Program-made: the position numbers and the translations under genes
Assembly (NCBI GenBank): GCA_004195045.1
Contig: SGBC01000004.1
Span: 233,175 to 297,174, forward strand
Origin: Candidatus Acididesulfobacter guangdongensis
Lineage (GTDB): Bacteria > SZUA-79 > Acidulodesulfobacterales > Acidulodesulfobacteraceae
DNA: 64,000 nt
Reading direction: 5' to 3'
The notes under the pieces: generated by a model
What the model was told of the DNA's origin: nothing
What the model saw: only the letters and a program-made list of their open reading frames with translations
Databases searched by the model: none
Shown: piece after piece, positions 5,583 through 63,912 of the stretch
Layout of the letters: each line of letters begins with the position of its first letter
Position numbering within the stretch: the stretch's first letter is position 1

Positions 5583-6932
5583 ATGTTCGGCGGACACAAC
5601 GAAGTTGAAAAAAAATGCAGGCTTATTAATGCCGCTTTTATAGGAACCAATGCGGAACTTAAAGAATTAATAAAGAAAGAGGCTAAACACGTCAAAGATA
5701 ATGACTTCCTAAAAGCAATGGAAACAAGGCGCAAAATAGTTGAAATTGCAGATATAGTGGTCGGCGGTTTCAGCACGGCGGCTCAATCTAAAGTGCTGTA
5801 TTCAGAATTTAATCAATCTTTAGGCGAGATATTAACAATGTCAAATACTACGTCTTCTTCTATTGAAGAGATGTCTCAGACAATAAAAGAAATCGCTTCA
5901 AATGCACAGTTTTCCGCAGGAGCGGCAAAACAGACCGTTGACCAGACGACTGAAGGTTCTAATGCTTTAAACCAGCTCTCCGAGAAGATGGGTATGGTAA
6001 TGCAGGCTGTTCAAATGATGAGCGAATCAATTACAAAGTTTGTAGAAAATACCCAGAAAATAACGGGTCTTACCTCGGAAGTAAAAGATATAGCCGACCA
6101 GACTAACCTTTTGGCATTGAACGCTGCAATTGAAGCGGCTCGAGCGGGAGAGCAGGGCAGAGGTTTTGCCGTGGTAGCCGACGAGGTAAGAAAATTAGCA
6201 GAAAAATCGGCAAAAGCGGCAAAAGAAATTGAGCAGGTAACAATGGTTATAAACGACCAGTCTAACGCCGTTAAGGAAAAAGTAACAGACGGAATTAATT
6301 TTATGAACAACAGCAAAGAATCATTAGATATAGTGGAAGATGTTCTAAAAAAAGCTAACGACGAAGCTATAAAGACCTCAGACAGCATAAGCAGAATTGC
6401 AACAGCCGCTGAAGAACAATCATTCGTTTCAAAAGAAATGGCTTCCAACATTACAGCTATAACGGGAGATCTAGAAAGCGGAAGCGCAACATTTAAAAAA
6501 TTATACGGTCTTATAGATGAATTATTAAACGGTTTCAAGAAGGACTTAAACGAATTTATGTTTTTTCCTTACGATACAATGCTTTTAACCCTGACTAAGG
6601 GCGACCATGTTACATGGGTTTCAAATGTTTTAGATATTTTTGTGGCTAATAATACGAAGGTAAGCCCTTCGGAATTAACCTCTCATCACGAATGCAGGCT
6701 CGGGAAATGGTATGATGGTCCGGGCAAAGAACAATACGGAGATAATCCGGCTTTTATTGCGTTAGGTCAAGTCCATCCGAAGGTTCACGAAACAGGAAAA
6801 GCAATCGTCGCTGCAATACAGAGCGGCAATAAAAGCGAAGCTAAAAAATTAGCGGAGCAGTTAGAAAAATATTCCGAAGAAGTACAGTTAAAATTAGACG
6901 ATTTAATAAGAAGCGTTCAGGTAAAAGCTTAA
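5583..6932 (+). CDS. soluble methyl-accepting chemotaxis protein with C-terminal CZB domain
   Basis: A 449-residue chemoreceptor without membrane segments, so cytoplasmic. Residues about 60-330 form the coiled-coil signalling domain; the hairpin tip that contacts CheA/CheW spans about 172-207 ([15 protein letters not shown] followed by [13 protein letters not shown]). The C-terminus (about 335-445) is a chemoreceptor zinc-binding domain with the ligand set H342, C371 (in CRLGKWYDG), H398 and H402. CZB domains sense zinc state or oxidants such as hypochlorous acid. The ATG at 5583 is supported by ggagga about 8 bases upstream. It is probably transcribed alone, with a repeat-filled gap following. 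Confidence 0.92.
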
Positions 6933-23814: not shown

Positions 23815-25506
23815 TTGATAGATAGATATTCTTTGCCGGAAATTTCTAATATCTGGTCGCTAGAAAACAAATACAATGCATGGCTTCAAGTTGAACTTGC
23901 GGTATGTTCGGCTTATAATAAAATCGGCAGGATACCCGATAAATCATTAGAAAATATTTTAAAAAACGCAAAATTCGATGTTGCAGAAATTGAAGAAACT
24001 GAAAAAATAACAAAGCATGACGTCATTGCTTTTTTGACTAATGTTGCAAAATATGTCGGCGAAGATTCAAGATTTATTCATCTAGGACTTACATCTTCGG
24101 ATATAGGCGATACTTCGTTTTCTCTATTATTTAGGCAGGCGCTTAATTTGAACCTGTCAAAAGCTAAGATTCTTGCAGAAAGTTTATTGCAGAAAGCCGT
24201 CAAATATAAATATACCTCTATGATGGGCAGAACTCACGGAATACATGCAGAGCCAATAACATTCGGTTTTAAACTTCTCATATTTTACGAAGAAATTAAC
24301 AGAGGAATTGTCAGACTAAATAAAGCTATAGAGACAGTTTCATGCGGAAAACTGTCTGGAGCGGTGGGAACATTTGCAAATTTTCCGCCTGAGGTTGAAA
24401 AAATAGCGCTTGATATTTTAGATTTGAAACCTATTTTGTCAAATCAGGTAATTCAAAGAGATATATATGCGGAATGTTTCTACGCTATTGCCTCGCTTGG
24501 CGCTTCCTGTGAAAAAATAGCCCTTGAAATGCGGCACTTAATGAGAACCGAAGTCTCGGAAGCTGAAGAAGCTTTTTCTGCCGGACAAAAAGGATCGTCA
24601 GCTATGCCGCATAAGAAAAATCCTATTGTCTCCGAAAATATCTGCGGGCTTTCCAGAATATTAAGGTCAAATTTAATGTCGGCTCTTGAAGATATTCCCT
24701 TATGGCATGAAAGGGATATTTCGCATTCTTCGGTGGAAAGAATTATAACGCCTGATTCTACAATCTTAATGTATTACATACTGAATCAGCTTATTAATTT
24801 AGTTGACAATATGGTTGTACATGAAGACAGAATGCTTAAAAATATGCAGTTGACGAAAGGTGTTATTTTTTCGCAAAAAATTTTGCTTGCCATGATAGAT
24901 AAAGGAATGCTCAGGGAAGACGCATATAAAATTGTTCAGAAACTTGCTCATCAGGCTATACAGACGGAAACAGAATTTGCAGTTCTGCTAAAAAATAATG
25001 ACGATGTTCTGAAATATTTAAACGAAGCTGAAATAAACAATTTATTTGATATTAACTATTATTATAAAAATATTGATTTTATTTTTGAAAGGTCCATGTC
25101 ATTATTTCCTTCTCCCGCGCCGGAAGGCAATGATATAATAAAAGCTACGGTTAAAGTTACACTTAAAGACGAGGTTCTGGACCCTCAGGGGAAGGCTGTT
25201 TTATCTGTTTTAAAATCGTCGGGATATGATAATATTGAAGATGTCAGAGTCGGAAAGCATATAGAATTAACTATTAAACAAAACAATAATATTAGTAATA
25301 TTGATAAGGACAATAATAATATTATTGACGCCTATCACGGCAGTAATGATAATAGCGCTGCTAATGATAATATCGGCATCAACGGGTCAAGCAGAAATAA
25401 TATGTCAGGACTGGACAAAAAAATGTTAAGCAAAGAATTAAAAGATATTTCTGAAAAGATATTGTCTAATCCTATAATAGAAAACTTTAATATTGAGATC
25501 AAATAG
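23815..25506 (+). CDS. purB: adenylosuccinate lyase fused to PurS (PurB-PurS)
   Basis: A 563-residue two-domain protein. Residues 1-435 are adenylosuccinate lyase (cleaves SAICAR and adenylosuccinate): TSSDIGDTS (93-101), MGRTHGIHAEP (137-147) and signature SSAMPHKKNP (261-270). Residues 442-489 (TVKVTLKDEVLDPQGKAV, then DVRVGKHIELTI) and 534-563 (SEKILSNPIIENFNIEIK) are the two halves of PurS, the small FGAM-synthase subunit, separated by an Asn/Ser/Asp-rich linker (490-533). No free-standing purS is seen, and purQ and purL follow. The start is a TTG at 23815 with gaggg upstream. Confidence 0.92.
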   Translation: MIDRYSLPEISNIWSLENKYNAWLQVELAVCSAYNKIGRIPDKSLENILKNAKFDVAEIEETEKITKHDVIAFLTNVAKYVGEDSRFIHLGLTSSDIGDTSFSLLFRQALNLNLSKAKILAESLLQKAVKYKYTSMMGRTHGIHAEPITFGFKLLIFYEEINRGIVRLNKAIETVSCGKLSGAVGTFANFPPEVEKIALDILDLKPILSNQVIQRDIYAECFYAIASLGASCEKIALEMRHLMRTEVSEAEEAFSAGQKGSSAMPHKKNPIVSENICGLSRILRSNLMSALEDIPLWHERDISHSSVERIITPDSTILMYYILNQLINLVDNMVVHEDRMLKNMQLTKGVIFSQKILLAMIDKGMLREDAYKIVQKLAHQAIQTETEFAVLLKNNDDVLKYLNEAEINNLFDINYYYKNIDFIFERSMSLFPSPAPEGNDIIKATVKVTLKDEVLDPQGKAVLSVLKSSGYDNIEDVRVGKHIELTIKQNNNISNIDKDNNNIIDAYHGSNDNSAANDNIGINGSSRNNMSGLDKKMLSKELKDISEKILSNPIIENFNIEIK

Positions 25507-25574
25507 CTATGTTGCATTGATATAATGCAGCTGATGCAAAAGCTCCTATATATAATAGAAAACTTTAATATTGA
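25473..25574. repeat. partial duplication of the purB-purS 3' end
   Basis: tataatagaaaactttaata at 25473, inside the last codons of purB-purS, is repeated at 25551 with the following bases also matching (ttga.at.aa), a spacing of 78 bases. The copy is untranslated and lies just before purQ. Confidence 0.7.
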
Positions 25575-25632
25575 AATTAATAATTATTTAGATAGACATT
25601 GAGACGATTAATTGAGTATTGGGCTAAATTTA

Positions 25633-26472
25633 ATGGAAAATAAAAAAATAAACGCAGGCATTACTGTTTTCCCAGGTTCTAACTGCGATATGGATGTTTA
25701 TTATGCTTTAAAGGATGTGTTTAACCTCAACGTTTCTTTTTTGTGGCATAAAGACGAATTTCATAATTTTAAAAATTACGATTTTATAGTAATACCGGGC
25801 GGATTTTCTTACGGCGATTATTTAAGAGCTGGCGCTTTGGCTGCAAGAAGCAGAGTAATGAAATCTATAAAAGAATATGCTGACGGCGGAGGCATTGTTT
25901 TGGGCATCTGCAACGGATTTCAAATACTTTTGGAATCAGGGCTGCTTAAAGGAGCAATGCTGACAAATAAATCTTTAAAATTTGAATGCAGGGACGTATA
26001 TATTAAAAATATTTCCGGTAATAATTCCAATAAAAATAATAGCAGCAATAATAGTGGCAACAATTATAGCAACGGCAATAAAAACAATAGCGGCAACAAT
26101 AATAATATCAATAAAAACAATAGCGGCAATAACAATAACCGCGAAAATCCGTTTACTTGTCTTATAGAAAAAGATGCTGTTTTGAAGCTTCCTATAGCGC
26201 ATCATGACGGGAATTATTTTGCCGAAAATAATGAACTGGAAGATTTATTTTCTTCAGGTCATGTAGCTTTCCAATATTGTAATGAAGACGGAGTTGTAGC
26301 GGACGATTCAAATCCCAACGGTTCCTTAAAAAATATCGGAGGACTGTTTGGAGAAAATTTTAATGTGATGGGTCTCATGCCTCACCCTGAAAGAGCATCA
26401 GAAAAAATATTGGGAAGTAATGATGGAGCAAAAATATTTAATTCTATTATTTATTACATTAAAAATAAATAA
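25633..26472 (+). CDS. purQ: phosphoribosylformylglycinamidine synthase subunit PurQ with Asn-rich insert
   Basis: Class I glutamine amidotransferase supplying ammonia to PurL. ITVFPGSNCDMD (10-21), IPGGFSYGDYLRAG and the nucleophile C93 in GICNGFQILLESG are clear; His/Glu of the triad lie in LMPHPERASEK near the C-terminus. About 279 residues against the usual 220-235; the surplus is a block at about 128-171 composed almost only of Asn, Ser, Gly and Lys, placed between YIKN and NPFTCLI. I start at the ATG 25633, not the TTG at 25612, since the conserved core follows directly. Confidence 0.92.
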   Translation: MENKKINAGITVFPGSNCDMDVYYALKDVFNLNVSFLWHKDEFHNFKNYDFIVIPGGFSYGDYLRAGALAARSRVMKSIKEYADGGGIVLGICNGFQILLESGLLKGAMLTNKSLKFECRDVYIKNISGNNSNKNNSSNNSGNNYSNGNKNNSGNNNNINKNNSGNNNNRENPFTCLIEKDAVLKLPIAHHDGNYFAENNELEDLFSSGHVAFQYCNEDGVVADDSNPNGSLKNIGGLFGENFNVMGLMPHPERASEKILGSNDGAKIFNSIIYYIKNK

Positions 26473-26599: not shown

Positions 26600-29026
26600 A
26601 TGATAATAACTGATGACAGCAGCACTGACAACAGCTATAAAAGCGATAATGACAGGTCAGGTAATTACATTGATAATGCAAACGCAAGCGCTTCTGTTCA
26701 TTTGCCGGTGAGCAAAGATTATGCTCAATTCGGATTATCTTTTGAAGAATATAAAAAGATAAACGATACCATAAAGAGAGAGCCGGACGATTTTGAGCTG
26801 GGTATTTTTTCCGCTATGTGGTCGGAGCATTGCAGCTATAAAAGCACAAAAATACATCTTAAAAATTTACCGTCAAAAGGTGACGCCGTTATTATAGGTC
26901 CTGGAGAAAACGCCGGAGTTGTAAAATTTGACGGCGATTATGTTCTTGTGTTTAAAATGGAAAGCCATAATCACCCCTCTTTCATTGAGCCCTTTGAAGG
27001 CGCGGCGACCGGAGTAGGCGGAATTATGCGCGATATCTTTACAATGGGCGCAAGACCTATTGCAAATCTTAATTCCCTCAGATTTGGAAATTTTAATCAT
27101 CCAAGAACGCCCTATTATTTATCTGAAGTTGTAAAAGGCATAGGGTTTTACGGAAACTGTATGGGAGTTCCTACCGTCGGCGGCGAGGTCGTGTTTGATT
27201 CATGCTATGATAATAATATACTTGTCAATGCTTTTACGATAGGAATAGCTAAAAAGGACGCTATATTTCTTTCATCAGCCTGTGAAGAAGGCAATTTTGT
27301 GGTGTATGTCGGTTCGGCAACGGGGATGGATGGAATCAACGGAGCTACCATGGCTTCAGGTGAATTTGATTCATCGAAAGCTAAAAAAAGAAGCACTGTT
27401 CAGGTTGGAGACCCTTTTACGGAAAAATTGCTGCTTGAGGCGTGCCTTGAGGCAATGGATAAAAAACTTATAGTTTCCATTCAGGATATGGGCGCAGCCG
27501 GATTAACGAGCTCTTCTTTTGAGATGTCGGAAAATAGCGGTAAAGGCATGATTTTAAATATGGATAAAATTCCGTTAAGGGCGGCAGGTATGACGCCGCT
27601 TGACATTATGCTTTCGGAATCGCAGGAAAGAATGCTTATTGCATGCGAAAAGGGAAAATATGATGAGCTTGAAGGGATATTTAAAAAATGGGATTTAAAT
27701 TGCGTTATTATAGGCGAAGTCACTAAAGAAAAAACAATTCAGTTTATTTATAAATCTAAACCGTATCATACGCTGTCTGTAGAGGCGGTGGTAAACGGTC
27801 CGTCTTACGATAGACCGTCGGCTGTTCCGTTATATATGAAAGATATAAAACAATTTTTGCCGGATGAATACAGAATGCCTAAGAATTTTAATTCCGTTGC
27901 CGAAAGAATTATATCTCATCCAAATATTGCATCAAAACATTTTATTTACAGGCAGTACGATTATCAGATTGGAACAAATACGCTTGCAGGTCCGGGTTCA
28001 TCTTGCGCAGTGCTGAGATATAAAGAATTTAACGCTTCGACCGATTCAATAAATTCGGCAAATCCCGCAGATTTAAGTTTAGATGATTTAACAAATCAGG
28101 CAGATTTAAGTTCCGGTTATCTAACAAATCAGGCAGATTTAAAGGCAGATTTAAGTTCCGGTATAATATTAAATTCAAACTGCAATTCAAAATATTGCTA
28201 CCTTAATCCTTATAAAGGGGCAATGTTAGCTGTTATAGAATGCGCAAGGAATATTTCCGCATGCGGAGGAACGCCCGTTGCTATTACCGACTGCCTTAAT
28301 TTCGCCAGTCCGGAAGACCCTGAAATTATGTGGCAGTTTAAAGAAGCCATAAGGGGCATAACGGATGCCGCCTTAAAATTTAATACCCCCGCGGTCAGCG
28401 GTAATGTCAGTTTATACAACGAAACAGCAGGAGCAGGGAAGATTTATCCTACTCCGGTAATTGCGATGGTAGGCTATATAGACGATGCCGGCAAAGCTAT
28501 CAATTCAAATTATAAAGACGAAGGCGATAATGTTTACCTGCTTGGCAGGCTGTCCGGAAATCTCGGCGGGAGCTTATTTATGGAGCTTGTTCATAACGAT
28601 TTTATGCAGGAACCGCTTTCTATTGATATGGACTATGAGTTAAAACTTCAGAGCTGCTTACGCGGTCTTATAGACGGGAAATTGTTAAAAAGCGCCGCTG
28701 ATATCAGCGAGGGCGGTCTTTTTACGGCAGTAGCAGAACCGGCAATTTCATCAGATAAAAATTTGGGCGTAATTGCGGAAGTACATAGAGACGGACTAAG
28801 AAACGACATGATTTTATTTTCTGAATTTGAACAGGCTTTTATTATAAGCGCAAATCCTTCGAACGAACATAAGATTTACGAATTTGCAAAAAATGCAGGT
28901 ATTGAAATTGAAAAAATAGGAATAATTGTAAAAGATATTATAAAATTTAATAACATAATAGAACTAAAAAGTGGTAAAATAAAAGAAAGGTATTATAACG
29001 CGGTAGAAAAATTATTTGGCAAGTAG
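26600..29026 (+). CDS. purL: phosphoribosylformylglycinamidine synthase subunit PurL
   Basis: An 808-residue synthetase of the small (three-subunit) type that makes FGAM from FGAR, ATP and glutamine-derived ammonia. FSAMWSEHCSYKST, GPGENAGV, MESHNHPSFIEPFEGAATGVGG-type blocks (outlined), GGEVVFDSCY and DMGAAGLTSS are family hallmarks. It has an Asp/Ser-rich N-terminal extension of about 35 residues and an insert at about 477-535 containing two near-repeats, LTNQADLSSGYL and LTNQADLKADLSSG. The classic small PurL is about 720-750 residues. It acts with PurQ and the PurS domain fused to PurB. Confidence 0.95.
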   Translation: MIITDDSSTDNSYKSDNDRSGNYIDNANASASVHLPVSKDYAQFGLSFEEYKKINDTIKREPDDFELGIFSAMWSEHCSYKSTKIHLKNLPSKGDAVIIGPGENAGVVKFDGDYVLVFKMESHNHPSFIEPFEGAATGVGGIMRDIFTMGARPIANLNSLRFGNFNHPRTPYYLSEVVKGIGFYGNCMGVPTVGGEVVFDSCYDNNILVNAFTIGIAKKDAIFLSSACEEGNFVVYVGSATGMDGINGATMASGEFDSSKAKKRSTVQVGDPFTEKLLLEACLEAMDKKLIVSIQDMGAAGLTSSSFEMSENSGKGMILNMDKIPLRAAGMTPLDIMLSESQERMLIACEKGKYDELEGIFKKWDLNCVIIGEVTKEKTIQFIYKSKPYHTLSVEAVVNGPSYDRPSAVPLYMKDIKQFLPDEYRMPKNFNSVAERIISHPNIASKHFIYRQYDYQIGTNTLAGPGSSCAVLRYKEFNASTDSINSANPADLSLDDLTNQADLSSGYLTNQADLKADLSSGIILNSNCNSKYCYLNPYKGAMLAVIECARNISACGGTPVAITDCLNFASPEDPEIMWQFKEAIRGITDAALKFNTPAVSGNVSLYNETAGAGKIYPTPVIAMVGYIDDAGKAINSNYKDEGDNVYLLGRLSGNLGGSLFMELVHNDFMQEPLSIDMDYELKLQSCLRGLIDGKLLKSAADISEGGLFTAVAEPAISSDKNLGVIAEVHRDGLRNDMILFSEFEQAFIISANPSNEHKIYEFAKNAGIEIEKIGIIVKDIIKFNNIIELKSGKIKERYYNAVEKLFGK

Positions 29027-50779: not shown

Positions 50780-52144
50780 CTATAAAGCAGATTCAAAGGC
50801 TTTTTTGAAAAAAATTTCGGCGTCTTTTGATCTGCCGGATTTTTTAAGACATTCTGCGTAGTTAAAATAATAGTCGGGATTATAGCTATTAAGCGCAATG
50901 GCTTTTTTGAATAATTTAAGAGCGTTAGAATAATTGGCTTTAATCACGCCGGTAATATTATCATCAGTATATATATTTCCATTTCCTATGTCATTATATA
51001 GTTCAGAGAGTACCGGTATATATTCGTTTGTTATAAACATAGCAGAGCTAAAGCAAATTTCATCTTTAGTATAATAATTTTTGGTTCTTGATTCCCACAT
51101 ATTTAAAATATCAAAGAATTTTGAATTAATATTATTATATGCTGCGTTGCTTTCTTCTATCTTTATTTTATCAAAATCCCCATTGATTTTATAATGGATT
51201 TTATCAAACTCTTCGAAAGTTTCGGATGTTGAGCCGGCACTATAATTTTCAAAGGCAGTACTGTACATTTCTTCAGCATAAGAATTTTTAAAATCGTTAT
51301 ATATTTTTTTACTGAAATTCATCATATTGTAAAAGAAAGTAAGTTTTTCATATTCTTTAAATTCATATAAATATTTGCATAAATCGAAAAAAAGCGGCGT
51401 ATAATTGTAGTTATATGTATAAGTATAAGTTGAATAATCTGGTTCATGCGGTTCATTGCAGTATTTATATTCTATTTTATCATTATTATTAATTTCTTTT
51501 CTATCTATTATTATTTTTATATTTGTAGTATCGTCACCATTAATTTCATTTCCATTTGTTGTTATAGTTATTAGATCATTATTATCAATTTCCTTTTCAT
51601 CTGTTTCTATATTTTTTATATCATTATTATTAATTTCTTTTTCATTTACTGTTGTATTTATTATATCTTTTAGCGAGTTGATAGTATTAAATATCTCCAG
51701 ATATATAAGAATTTGTTTCGTTATTGCAGATTTATCATAAGCGCTAAGATATTCATTGCCGATTATAATGACATTATAATATTCAGTCATTATTTTTTTT
51801 AAGAAAGTATTGCAGGCATTATTAATATTTATTCTGCTTGATATTGGAGCGCTTAATTTAAATTTTTTAACGAACTCTTTAATATTACAGGTTTTTTCGA
51901 AATTATCTATATGCGCTTTTATTGCCGTAAAGTTTCCGTTTATATAGTATGATTTTAATAAATTTAATCTCAAATCTATATTTGAGTCATTATTTGTATT
52001 ATTGCCGCAGTCATTGAGCCCATTATAGTTATCGTAATTATTAAAACTATTACTTTTGGATAAAAATTGTTCGGCATTTTTCTGAAATGCCTGAATGCCT
52101 TCATAAAATCTTGCTAATTTATTTAATTCATAATAATAATTCAT
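50780..52144 (-). CDS. TPR-containing protein with internal low-complexity repeats
   Basis: A 454-residue cytoplasmic protein. The C-terminus (about 418-452; NALKLFKKAIALNSYNPDYYFNYAECLKKSG in outline) is a clear tetratricopeptide pair. The middle (about 158-220) contains four imperfect copies of K-E-I-N/D-N-N-D spaced 15-20 residues apart with I/T-rich text between. The rest is helical and Asn/Tyr-rich. It begins 18 bases after the HNH gene, so the two are very likely co-transcribed and may interact. Function unknown; TPR usually means a protein-binding scaffold. Confidence 0.7.
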   Translation of the reverse strand: MNYYYELNKLARFYEGIQAFQKNAEQFLSKSNSFNNYDNYNGLNDCGNNTNNDSNIDLRLNLLKSYYINGNFTAIKAHIDNFEKTCNIKEFVKKFKLSAPISSRININNACNTFLKKIMTEYYNVIIIGNEYLSAYDKSAITKQILIYLEIFNTINSLKDIINTTVNEKEINNNDIKNIETDEKEIDNNDLITITTNGNEINGDDTTNIKIIIDRKEINNNDKIEYKYCNEPHEPDYSTYTYTYNYNYTPLFFDLCKYLYEFKEYEKLTFFYNMMNFSKKIYNDFKNSYAEEMYSTAFENYSAGSTSETFEEFDKIHYKINGDFDKIKIEESNAAYNNINSKFFDILNMWESRTKNYYTKDEICFSSAMFITNEYIPVLSELYNDIGNGNIYTDDNITGVIKANYSNALKLFKKAIALNSYNPDYYFNYAECLKKSGRSKDAEIFFKKAFESAL

Positions 52145-52162
52145 TCGTTTTCTCCGGTAATA

Positions 52163-61746: not shown

Positions 61747-61917
61747 AAATAACTTGACTGAAAATATCGGCTATGCAGGGACAAGTACATTGCTTCGACT
61801 ATGGGATAAATAGTTAATCAATTATATTTTTGCATTATATATATTTATTATATATAATGCATATATTGTGTATATTGTGTATATTTATATATATTTATTG
61901 TATATAGTTAAATAACA

Positions 61918-63912
61918 ATGAATAACGCAGGCGATAACACTAATATCCATACTGCCGCAACCGGAAGATTTGCCGCCGCCGAAGAAATAATCCAAAATTT
62001 TTATTGCGAGCCCTATGAATCCTACGAATCATATAGCGGCGATAAAGCCAAAAACAGGTTAAAAAGATTCGGTTTCAGAAATTTATTGCTGTACGCTTTT
62101 TTAACTTTTGTTTTAATTTTGCTGCTTATGCCGTTTCAACGTATTAACGCTATAAATTTCCCTTTTTTCATATTTAAAGACTTTATCGTTATCCTGCTGC
62201 TATTAGTTTTTCTTATATATAAAAACAAGAATAAATACAAAATAAACAAGAATAAATACATAAGCAATATTTCGTCTGAGCAGATTTCTGCCGATAAAAA
62301 AAGCGGCTATATCCATACTGATGAGAATATTAATTATTTCAGATTAGGCATCATGGATCTTAATAATTATTACAATAGCTATAGCGATTATAATAATTAT
62401 TTTCACGATAATAATAATTACAGCAATGACAATGATAAAAATAAAAATAGATTAATTATAGGAATAGACAGAAAAAAAAGATTTGAACATATTATGATAG
62501 TATCGCCCACAGGCGGCGGCAAAACTTCAAAATATATAATACCATCCATAAGAAAAGATGCCTGCTTTAAGAATACATGCGTTTACGCAATAGATATAGA
62601 CGGACCGTATTTATACAACGCAGTGAAGGACAGCTGGTTTGCCAATAGCAAAAAAATAGTACATTTCGATCCGTATAATGACGGCTCCGTACATTTTAAT
62701 CCGCTTATAGAAAGGTGCGGCGATAAAAATGATTTTTATAACAATGAAAATAGAAAAGAAAATATTATGCCGGCAAGCGATGACAAACTTTATGAACTTT
62801 CTTCCATGATTTTTTATGCCGATAACAACGAACTAAAAGGAGGAGATATTCAGGCGCACAAATATTATTCTAAAAGAAGCGCCGATATTCTTTATGGCTG
62901 CCTTTTATATCTTAAATGCAAATACGACATTAAATATTTTAATTTGATTACGGCAAAAAAATTTTTTGAAAAAGGATTCAGTTTTATAGAAAAAGAAATA
63001 AAATCTTATAACGGAAATAACAGCAAAAAAATAAAAGAAATCTTTAATAATTTTTTCGAAATACCTTCTTATGAACGGGCAAAAATTATTACAGATATTT
63101 TGAACGGACTTGATTTTATAAAAAACGCAAATGTAGAAAATGCTTTTAAAACGACAGAGAAAATTCTGTCAGACGGTAATTTTTTAACTATAAAAGATTT
63201 GTTTAATAAAAATAATGATACGCTGCTGATTGTTTCAGTTCCTAAGGAAAAAATTAATTCAGGCGGCTCAAGACTAATTTCAATTATTACCGATATGGTA
63301 ATTAAAGAAATATATGAAAACCGGAGAGAAATTTTAAAGAATAATTCTGCTTCAAACGGTAATAAGGCAGACAATGAACCATGCGAGAAAGCTAATATTA
63401 AAGCTGATGTCAACTCAGGCGAAAAAGCAAGTATTAAAGCAGAGATAGACTTAGGCGAAAAAGCAGAAAGTAATTATGACGATTTTATATATAAAGATAT
63501 TTTTATATATTTAGATGAGTTTCCGGTCTTAAATATAAACAATTTTGATATAGAACTTGCAAATTTAAGAAAAACAGGTACTGGAGTCTGCATAAGTTTG
63601 CAGGATATTTCTTTTCTAAAAAATAAATACGGGGATATTTCGCTTATAGATTCAAATATCGGAACTCATATTATAATGGGTAATGCCGGTATTGATACTG
63701 CCAAACGGTATTCTGAAAAAATGGGACATAAATATGTAATGCATACGGAAAAATTCAATACTGTTTCCGGCAGAAATTTTAAAAACGGCATAGACGGTAT
63801 AGATTTATCTTTCGGCAAATATGACGGTGTAAATGACAGCGGAAGTCAATACAGCGGCGGTCTGCACGGCAGTTGTAAGTTCCAAAAGTTATTGATACTC
63901 TGCAAAAGATAA
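61918..63912 (+). CDS. VirD4/TraG-like coupling ATPase
   Basis: A 664-residue membrane ATPase. Two N-terminal helices (about 57-78 and 86-104) precede an Asn/Tyr-rich linker. The motor domain has Walker A SPTGGGKTSK (about 196-205) and Walker B IFIYLDEFPVL (about 528-538), with VHFDPYNDGSVHFNPL and ANLRKTGTGVCISLQD as further type IV coupling-protein blocks. A low-complexity insert (about 485-518) lies before Walker B. The protein ends soon after the last motor motif (FQKLLILCKR), shorter than typical VirD4. No relaxase or mating-pore gene is in view. The frame is closed inside the window; the last 88 bases hold nothing recognisable. Confidence 0.8.
   Translation: MNNAGDNTNIHTAATGRFAAAEEIIQNFYCEPYESYESYSGDKAKNRLKRFGFRNLLLYAFLTFVLILLLMPFQRINAINFPFFIFKDFIVILLLLVFLIYKNKNKYKINKNKYISNISSEQISADKKSGYIHTDENINYFRLGIMDLNNYYNSYSDYNNYFHDNNNYSNDNDKNKNRLIIGIDRKKRFEHIMIVSPTGGGKTSKYIIPSIRKDACFKNTCVYAIDIDGPYLYNAVKDSWFANSKKIVHFDPYNDGSVHFNPLIERCGDKNDFYNNENRKENIMPASDDKLYELSSMIFYADNNELKGGDIQAHKYYSKRSADILYGCLLYLKCKYDIKYFNLITAKKFFEKGFSFIEKEIKSYNGNNSKKIKEIFNNFFEIPSYERAKIITDILNGLDFIKNANVENAFKTTEKILSDGNFLTIKDLFNKNNDTLLIVSVPKEKINSGGSRLISIITDMVIKEIYENRREILKNNSASNGNKADNEPCEKANIKADVNSGEKASIKAEIDLGEKAESNYDDFIYKDIFIYLDEFPVLNINNFDIELANLRKTGTGVCISLQDISFLKNKYGDISLIDSNIGTHIIMGNAGIDTAKRYSEKMGHKYVMHTEKFNTVSGRNFKNGIDGIDLSFGKYDGVNDSGSQYSGGLHGSCKFQKLLILCKR

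Follow-up and report, generated by a model that had tools for sequence, protein, structure and literature searches.

Fusions between enzymes of purine synthesis are common, and adenylosuccinate lyase (PurB) is a homotetramer. In organisms whose PurL is of the small type, this protein forms FGAM synthase together with PurQ and PurS (PMC3261824; PMC3815217), and purine synthesis in B. subtilis requires PurS (PMC3261824). PurS functions as a dimer, and a pair of PurS chains corresponds to the N-terminal domain found in large PurL (PMC3815217). In large PurL, as in the locus described here, the PurS function comes from a domain rather than from a separate protein (PMC3815217); there, however, PurS-like, PurL and PurQ parts share one chain, whereas here PurS is joined to an enzyme outside FGAM synthase. 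The stand-alone PurS proteins of Bacillus, Thermotoga and archaea resemble the fused PurS in sequence, fold and operon place next to purQ and purL, but the fused form lacks a separate start, continues from PurB and has a loop insert of 41–80 residues. The PurB of T. maritima (1c3c/1c3u) shares the full-length fold and the GSSAMPHKKNP signature, while the C-terminus of the fused protein runs on into PurS. An E. coli two-hybrid screen suggests a dense interaction network among purine enzymes, although stable complexes have been hard to find (PMC10912719, section 4.2), and the present locus bears on the question of whether the enzymes of purine synthesis are physically associated in bacteria.

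One reading frame encodes PurB and PurS

We analysed a 64,000-nt stretch of the genome of Candidatus Acididesulfobacter guangdongensis (contig SGBC01000004.1), in the following called the window. Its translation reveals a single frame of 563 aa that runs without interruption from a TTG at 23815 to a stop codon at 25504–25506 and is followed by further genes of purine synthesis:

23815–25104, + strand: PurB (adenylosuccinate lyase) part, residues 1–430, TTG start; matches to TIGR00928, Lyase_1 and ADSL_C
25105–25134, + strand: junction linker, residues 431–440; covers the former purB stop, the intergenic gap and the purS start codon
25135–25290, + strand: N-terminal half of PurS, residues 441–492, beta-alpha-beta; PF02700 profile positions 1–50
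25291–25407, + strand: disordered, Asn-rich insert, residues 493–531, within the beta-alpha loop of PurS; pLDDT about 26–31
25408–25503, + strand: C-terminal half of PurS, residues 532–563, alpha-beta; PF02700 profile positions 49–77
25633–26472, + strand: purQ, glutaminase subunit of FGAM synthase; NF002957, 275 bits
26600–29026, + strand: small-type purL, catalytic subunit of FGAM synthase; NF002290, 906.9 bits; the only PurL of the genome
29157–30563, + strand: probably purF, next in the purine cluster; GATase_7 and Pribosyltran domains, gene order as in sister genera

The first part is PurB by the equivalog model TIGR00928 (488.7 bits; cut-off 326.2) and matches the Pfam families Lyase_1 (2.4e-47) and ADSL_C (4.2e-21, reaching residue 426). 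The fumarate-lyase signature GSSAMPHKKNP and an HGIHAEP motif are common to the fused protein and all aligned PurB sequences. For the tail, all three PurS models score above their cut-offs: PF02700 with 80.7 bits (9.1e-23; cut-off 22.2; best stretch residues 443–492), NF004630 with 77.1 bits (cut-off 75) and TIGR00302 with 64.1 bits (cut-off 39). The two PF02700 matches, at 25141–25290 (profile 1–50) and 25414–25500 (profile 49–77), together cover the whole profile, family-invariant PurS residues are kept in both halves, and the tail without its insert matches B. subtilis PurS at 1.6e-16. PurS is usually a separate protein of fewer than 100 residues; here it lies in frame with PurB in a product of 563 aa. 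These data confirm that the product consists of a complete adenylosuccinate lyase and a complete PurS in one frame, the latter split by an insert. The first-pass annotation had placed PurS at the C-terminus of PurB, with purQ and purL directly behind the fused gene, and both statements are borne out by the profile matches.

The purQ start is an ATG common to the relatives in the locus comparison, and all complete family members that were compared (window 23815; sister loci L033–L060) begin purB with a TTG at one and the same position. The final codons of the fusion recur in the gap before purQ (window 25500–25610; L033 4438–4569; L037): the window has one extra copy, and L033 has a 57-base unit present roughly twice.

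Predicted structure and the Asn-rich insert

In the AlphaFold model of the full chain, PurB is well ordered and so is PurS on either side of the insert, with pLDDT values of 82–89 for most of its N-terminal half. Disorder is confined to the junction (residues 434–440) and the insert (490–533), and values below 50 occur mainly there. PurB residues 2–429 superimpose on the T. maritima adenylosuccinate lyase with a VIA-align Z of 39.7 at 48% identity. Since the whole-model comparison returned relatives of PurB and nothing on the tail, a separate model of the tail was made and used for the search. Foldseek then matched it to at least eight solved PurS chains (E 2.2e-6 to 4.9e-4; TM by target 0.65–0.77), among them those of B. 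subtilis, M. jannaschii, T. thermophilus and T. maritima (E down to 2e-6), and gave no convincing match other than PurS chains. Given these matches, the PurS fold is predicted to close across the insert.

The insert, about a quarter of which is Asn, had been described as a 44-residue linker splitting PurS, which agrees with the stretch of pLDDT below 50 at residues 490–533. Its length ranges between 41 and 80 residues across the seven genomes, and in none of them is the frame broken. The same loop is already variable in length in the free PurS of the sister genera, and the Asn-rich linker is an expansion of this loop. Asn-rich stretches were found in 11 of 117 long frames of the genus, a sample in which homologous genes are repeated so that counts are not independent, and, with the threshold unchanged, in 0 of 150 long frames of the sister genera. 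Asn-rich loops are also present in PurQ (about 26008–26145) and PurL (near 28030–28190). Because other proteins of this AT-rich genus carry such inserts as well, the insert reflects a general habit of the genus rather than a device of the fusion. Further low-complexity inserts rich in Asn lie at 50783–52162 and 61912–63909 of the window, and catalytic enzymes are among the carriers.

The fused domain is the only PurS found in the genome

A six-frame PF02700 search of the whole genome (99% complete) gave matches only in the fused frame; the same search found a match in 12 of 14 control genomes. The earlier statement that no separate purS is seen thus holds for the whole genome, and the two observations that would speak against the fusion, a stand-alone purS elsewhere together with a degenerate PurB tail or a tail lacking any PurS match, were not made: no second gene was found, the tail is not degenerate, and profile, B. 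subtilis and fold matches are all present. One PurL scores above the cut-off, and it is of the small type. A large-type PurL that would make PurS dispensable was sought and rejected, as two additional weak PurL matches fall far below the 648-bit cut-off. With a single small PurL and no other purS, the fused tail is the only candidate for an essential subunit. For annotation this means that a purS search by gene length would report the gene as missing in Ca. Acididesulfobacter.

Origin of the fusion within the phylum

Ca. Acididesulfobacter are acid-mine bacteria, and NCBI places the group in Ca. Acidulodesulfobacteriota. In a sample of 30 genomes from six genera of this phylum, the fusion is present in all seven Ca. 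Acididesulfobacter genomes, in frames of 552–589 aa without an in-frame stop; Ca. Acididesulfobacter diazotrophicus AP1 is among the named records. The survey of related genomes proposed with the first-pass annotation thus finds the same fusion throughout the genus. The five other genera have a separate purS directly after purB, mostly 13–186 bases downstream. In all sister genera purB has its own stop and purS its own start, and this ancestral purS start codon is gone in the fused gene. Several unfused genomes (G009, G010, G013, G019 and G022) have purS in the frame of purB, with one to four stop codons in between, and in a genome of SZUA-79 the two frames overlap or nearly touch. Fused and unfused loci share one order of genes: two transport-type genes, purB, purS, purQ, purL, purF, pyrE. 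In a PurB tree the seven fused proteins form one clade (support 100/99), which requires one change of state. The polarity from separate to fused genes is clear, because the sister genera are unfused and the tree shows a single change, and judging from these sequences the purB stop was most likely lost once, at the base of the genus.

In the SZUA-79 locus (L039, genome G007, about 5718–5760), the frames of purB and purS have 11 bases in common when purS is taken to start at the first ATG, possibly an intermediate state on the way from separate genes to the fusion. Where free PurS has the motif VRVGKYIEL, all seven fused proteins have VRVGKHIEL (around residue 480), a Tyr to His change coinciding with the fusion.

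Selection on the fused gene and the possibility of free PurS

Codon comparisons within the genus, which are simple pairwise counts over short regions and therefore rough, gave a large contrast between regions: dN/dS is 0.03–0.08 for the PurB part, 0.03–0.28 for the N-terminal and 0.08–0.25 for the C-terminal half of PurS, but 0.4–1.8 in most pairs for the junction; for the insert it is about 0.1 in close pairs and up to 0.96 in one distant pair. By this measure purifying selection acts on the two halves of PurS, whereas the junction and the insert drift. Taken together, the PurB-PurS fusion is real and selectively maintained. A fused frame created by faulty assembly or base calling has a negligible probability and was ruled out: all compared genomes are metagenome assemblies, yet seven independent ones from different samples agree at a protein identity of 83–95%, and their inserts differ in length and still remain in frame. 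It is likewise very improbable that the tail is a degenerate remnant and that FGAM synthase has become independent of PurS. The long insert that splits the domain might be read in this way, but the retained invariant residues, the purifying selection on both halves and the modelled fold closing across the insert speak against it; on dN/dS and the modelled fold we rejected this explanation.

A different possibility is that the fusion exists at the level of the transcript only, and that a free PurS is still made by an internal start or by cleavage at the junction and works as elsewhere. Some members have an ATG or TTG 27 codons before the LDPQG motif, and in the window, L033 and L035 this is an in-frame ATG with GAAAGG just upstream; the junction, moreover, is predicted to be disordered (pLDDT below 50 at residues 434–440). 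However, the ATG follows the purine run by 3 bases, too near for a typical ribosome-binding site, and the ancestral purS start codon is lost. Comparing ATG, GTG and TTG codons near the PurS start in the seven genomes, we found no conserved internal start: L036 has none of them within 40 codons before LDPQG, in L034 and L038 the only such codon is a TTG located in the first strand of PurS, and L037 carries an ATG in this strand. As the start codons differ between species and L036 has none, internal initiation is not a conserved feature. It may occur occasionally in some species, and proteolysis at the flexible junction could release PurS, but as a general explanation a free PurS seems unlikely to us.

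Possible working of the fused enzyme

We consider it probable that PurB-PurS is a two-part enzyme of single origin, in which PurB is an ordinary lyase and the attached PurS the only bridging subunit of the cell. It would go back to the ancestor of Ca. Acididesulfobacter, in which loss of the purB stop would have turned the short spacer between purB and the adjoining purS into coding sequence. Judged from its homologues, the PurB part putatively works as an ordinary adenylosuccinate lyase with both lyase activities, and the PurS part, still attached, would act as the bridging subunit of a PurS2-PurL-PurQ FGAM synthase. The usual PurB tetramer would then carry four PurS, i.e. two PurS dimers, offering docking sites for up to two PurL and two PurQ. 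With the fused chain as the sole PurS, PurL and PurQ would assemble on PurB tetramers, the ratio of PurB to PurS would be fixed at 1:1, and FGAM synthase would probably be tethered to PurB through the fusion, so that step 4 (FGAM synthase) is held next to steps 8 and 12 (adenylosuccinate lyase). A direct hand-over of an intermediate is unlikely, because steps 4, 8 and 12 are not consecutive.

What the cell would gain from such an arrangement is a matter of weighing. An obligate supercomplex, in which a PurB tetramer carries two PurS dimers and every dimer binds a single PurL and a single PurQ, is the boldest proposal, and we advance it tentatively, as something that may well not hold; if true, steps 4, 8 and 12 would reside in one particle, a part of a bacterial purine metabolon that is hard-wired in the genome. 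A fixed ratio of the enzymes, or their local clustering, would be a more sober benefit. A serious rival is that there is no benefit at all: a neutral loss of the stop codon gave a functional fusion without advantage, which is now locked in, as PurS lacks a separate start codon. We give this reading a chance not far short of even. The genes were adjacent and in frame, the fusion has a single origin, and the steps at which PurB and PurS act are not consecutive; junction and insert drift fast, their dN/dS being close to neutral in distant pairs, and many Asn-rich inserts are tolerated in the genus. The purifying selection on the two domains and the retention in seven of seven genomes, which might be held against neutrality, fit either view. 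Whatever the benefit, if the fused chain works, at least these two non-consecutive purine enzymes can share one particle, and the locus offers a simple testable case.

Other fusions of purine enzymes

The surveys beyond the phylum covered samples of genomes rather than all genomes. With a profile spanning the C-terminal domain of PurB and the N-terminal half of PurS, run on 386 genomes mostly of different families, the junction was matched without a stop in the seven members of the genus only. The search is sensitive to the arrangement, since it found in-phase purB-purS pairs separated by stops in other phyla. Further samples of 19 and 386 genomes from two other phyla contained no PurB-PurS fusion at a strict threshold, which is weak evidence because a distant fusion might score below it. 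In the open-access literature searched, we found no description of a PurB-PurS fusion. It adds a further case to the fusions of purine enzymes, beside the PurS-like domains of large PurL and the PurC-PurS fusion described below.

A PurS-profile search of 389 genomes, with matches listed down to about 2e-24, gave long PurS frames in at least four more genomes among the matches listed, two of which are true PurC-PurS fusions. In these (L069 in G077 and L070 in G321) PurS likewise forms the C-terminus of a purine enzyme encoded upstream of purQ and purL; its partner, however, is SAICAR synthase and not adenylosuccinate lyase, which marks an independent event in another family of genomes. The long PurS frames of G159 and G331 are merely open frames in GC-rich DNA around an ordinary PurS, and a candidate in G016 (C171) is an unrelated protein scoring below the cut-off. 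The 584-aa PurB frame of G027 resolves into an ordinary PurB frame of 437 aa with a separate purS. PurB frames of 593–621 aa in G061 and G433 were also rejected as PurS fusions, their tails being basic and disordered. These C-terminal tails (L086 and L087) comprise about 140 residues, are rich in Lys, Arg and Pro, and end in RRGRRGGRR-like sequences.
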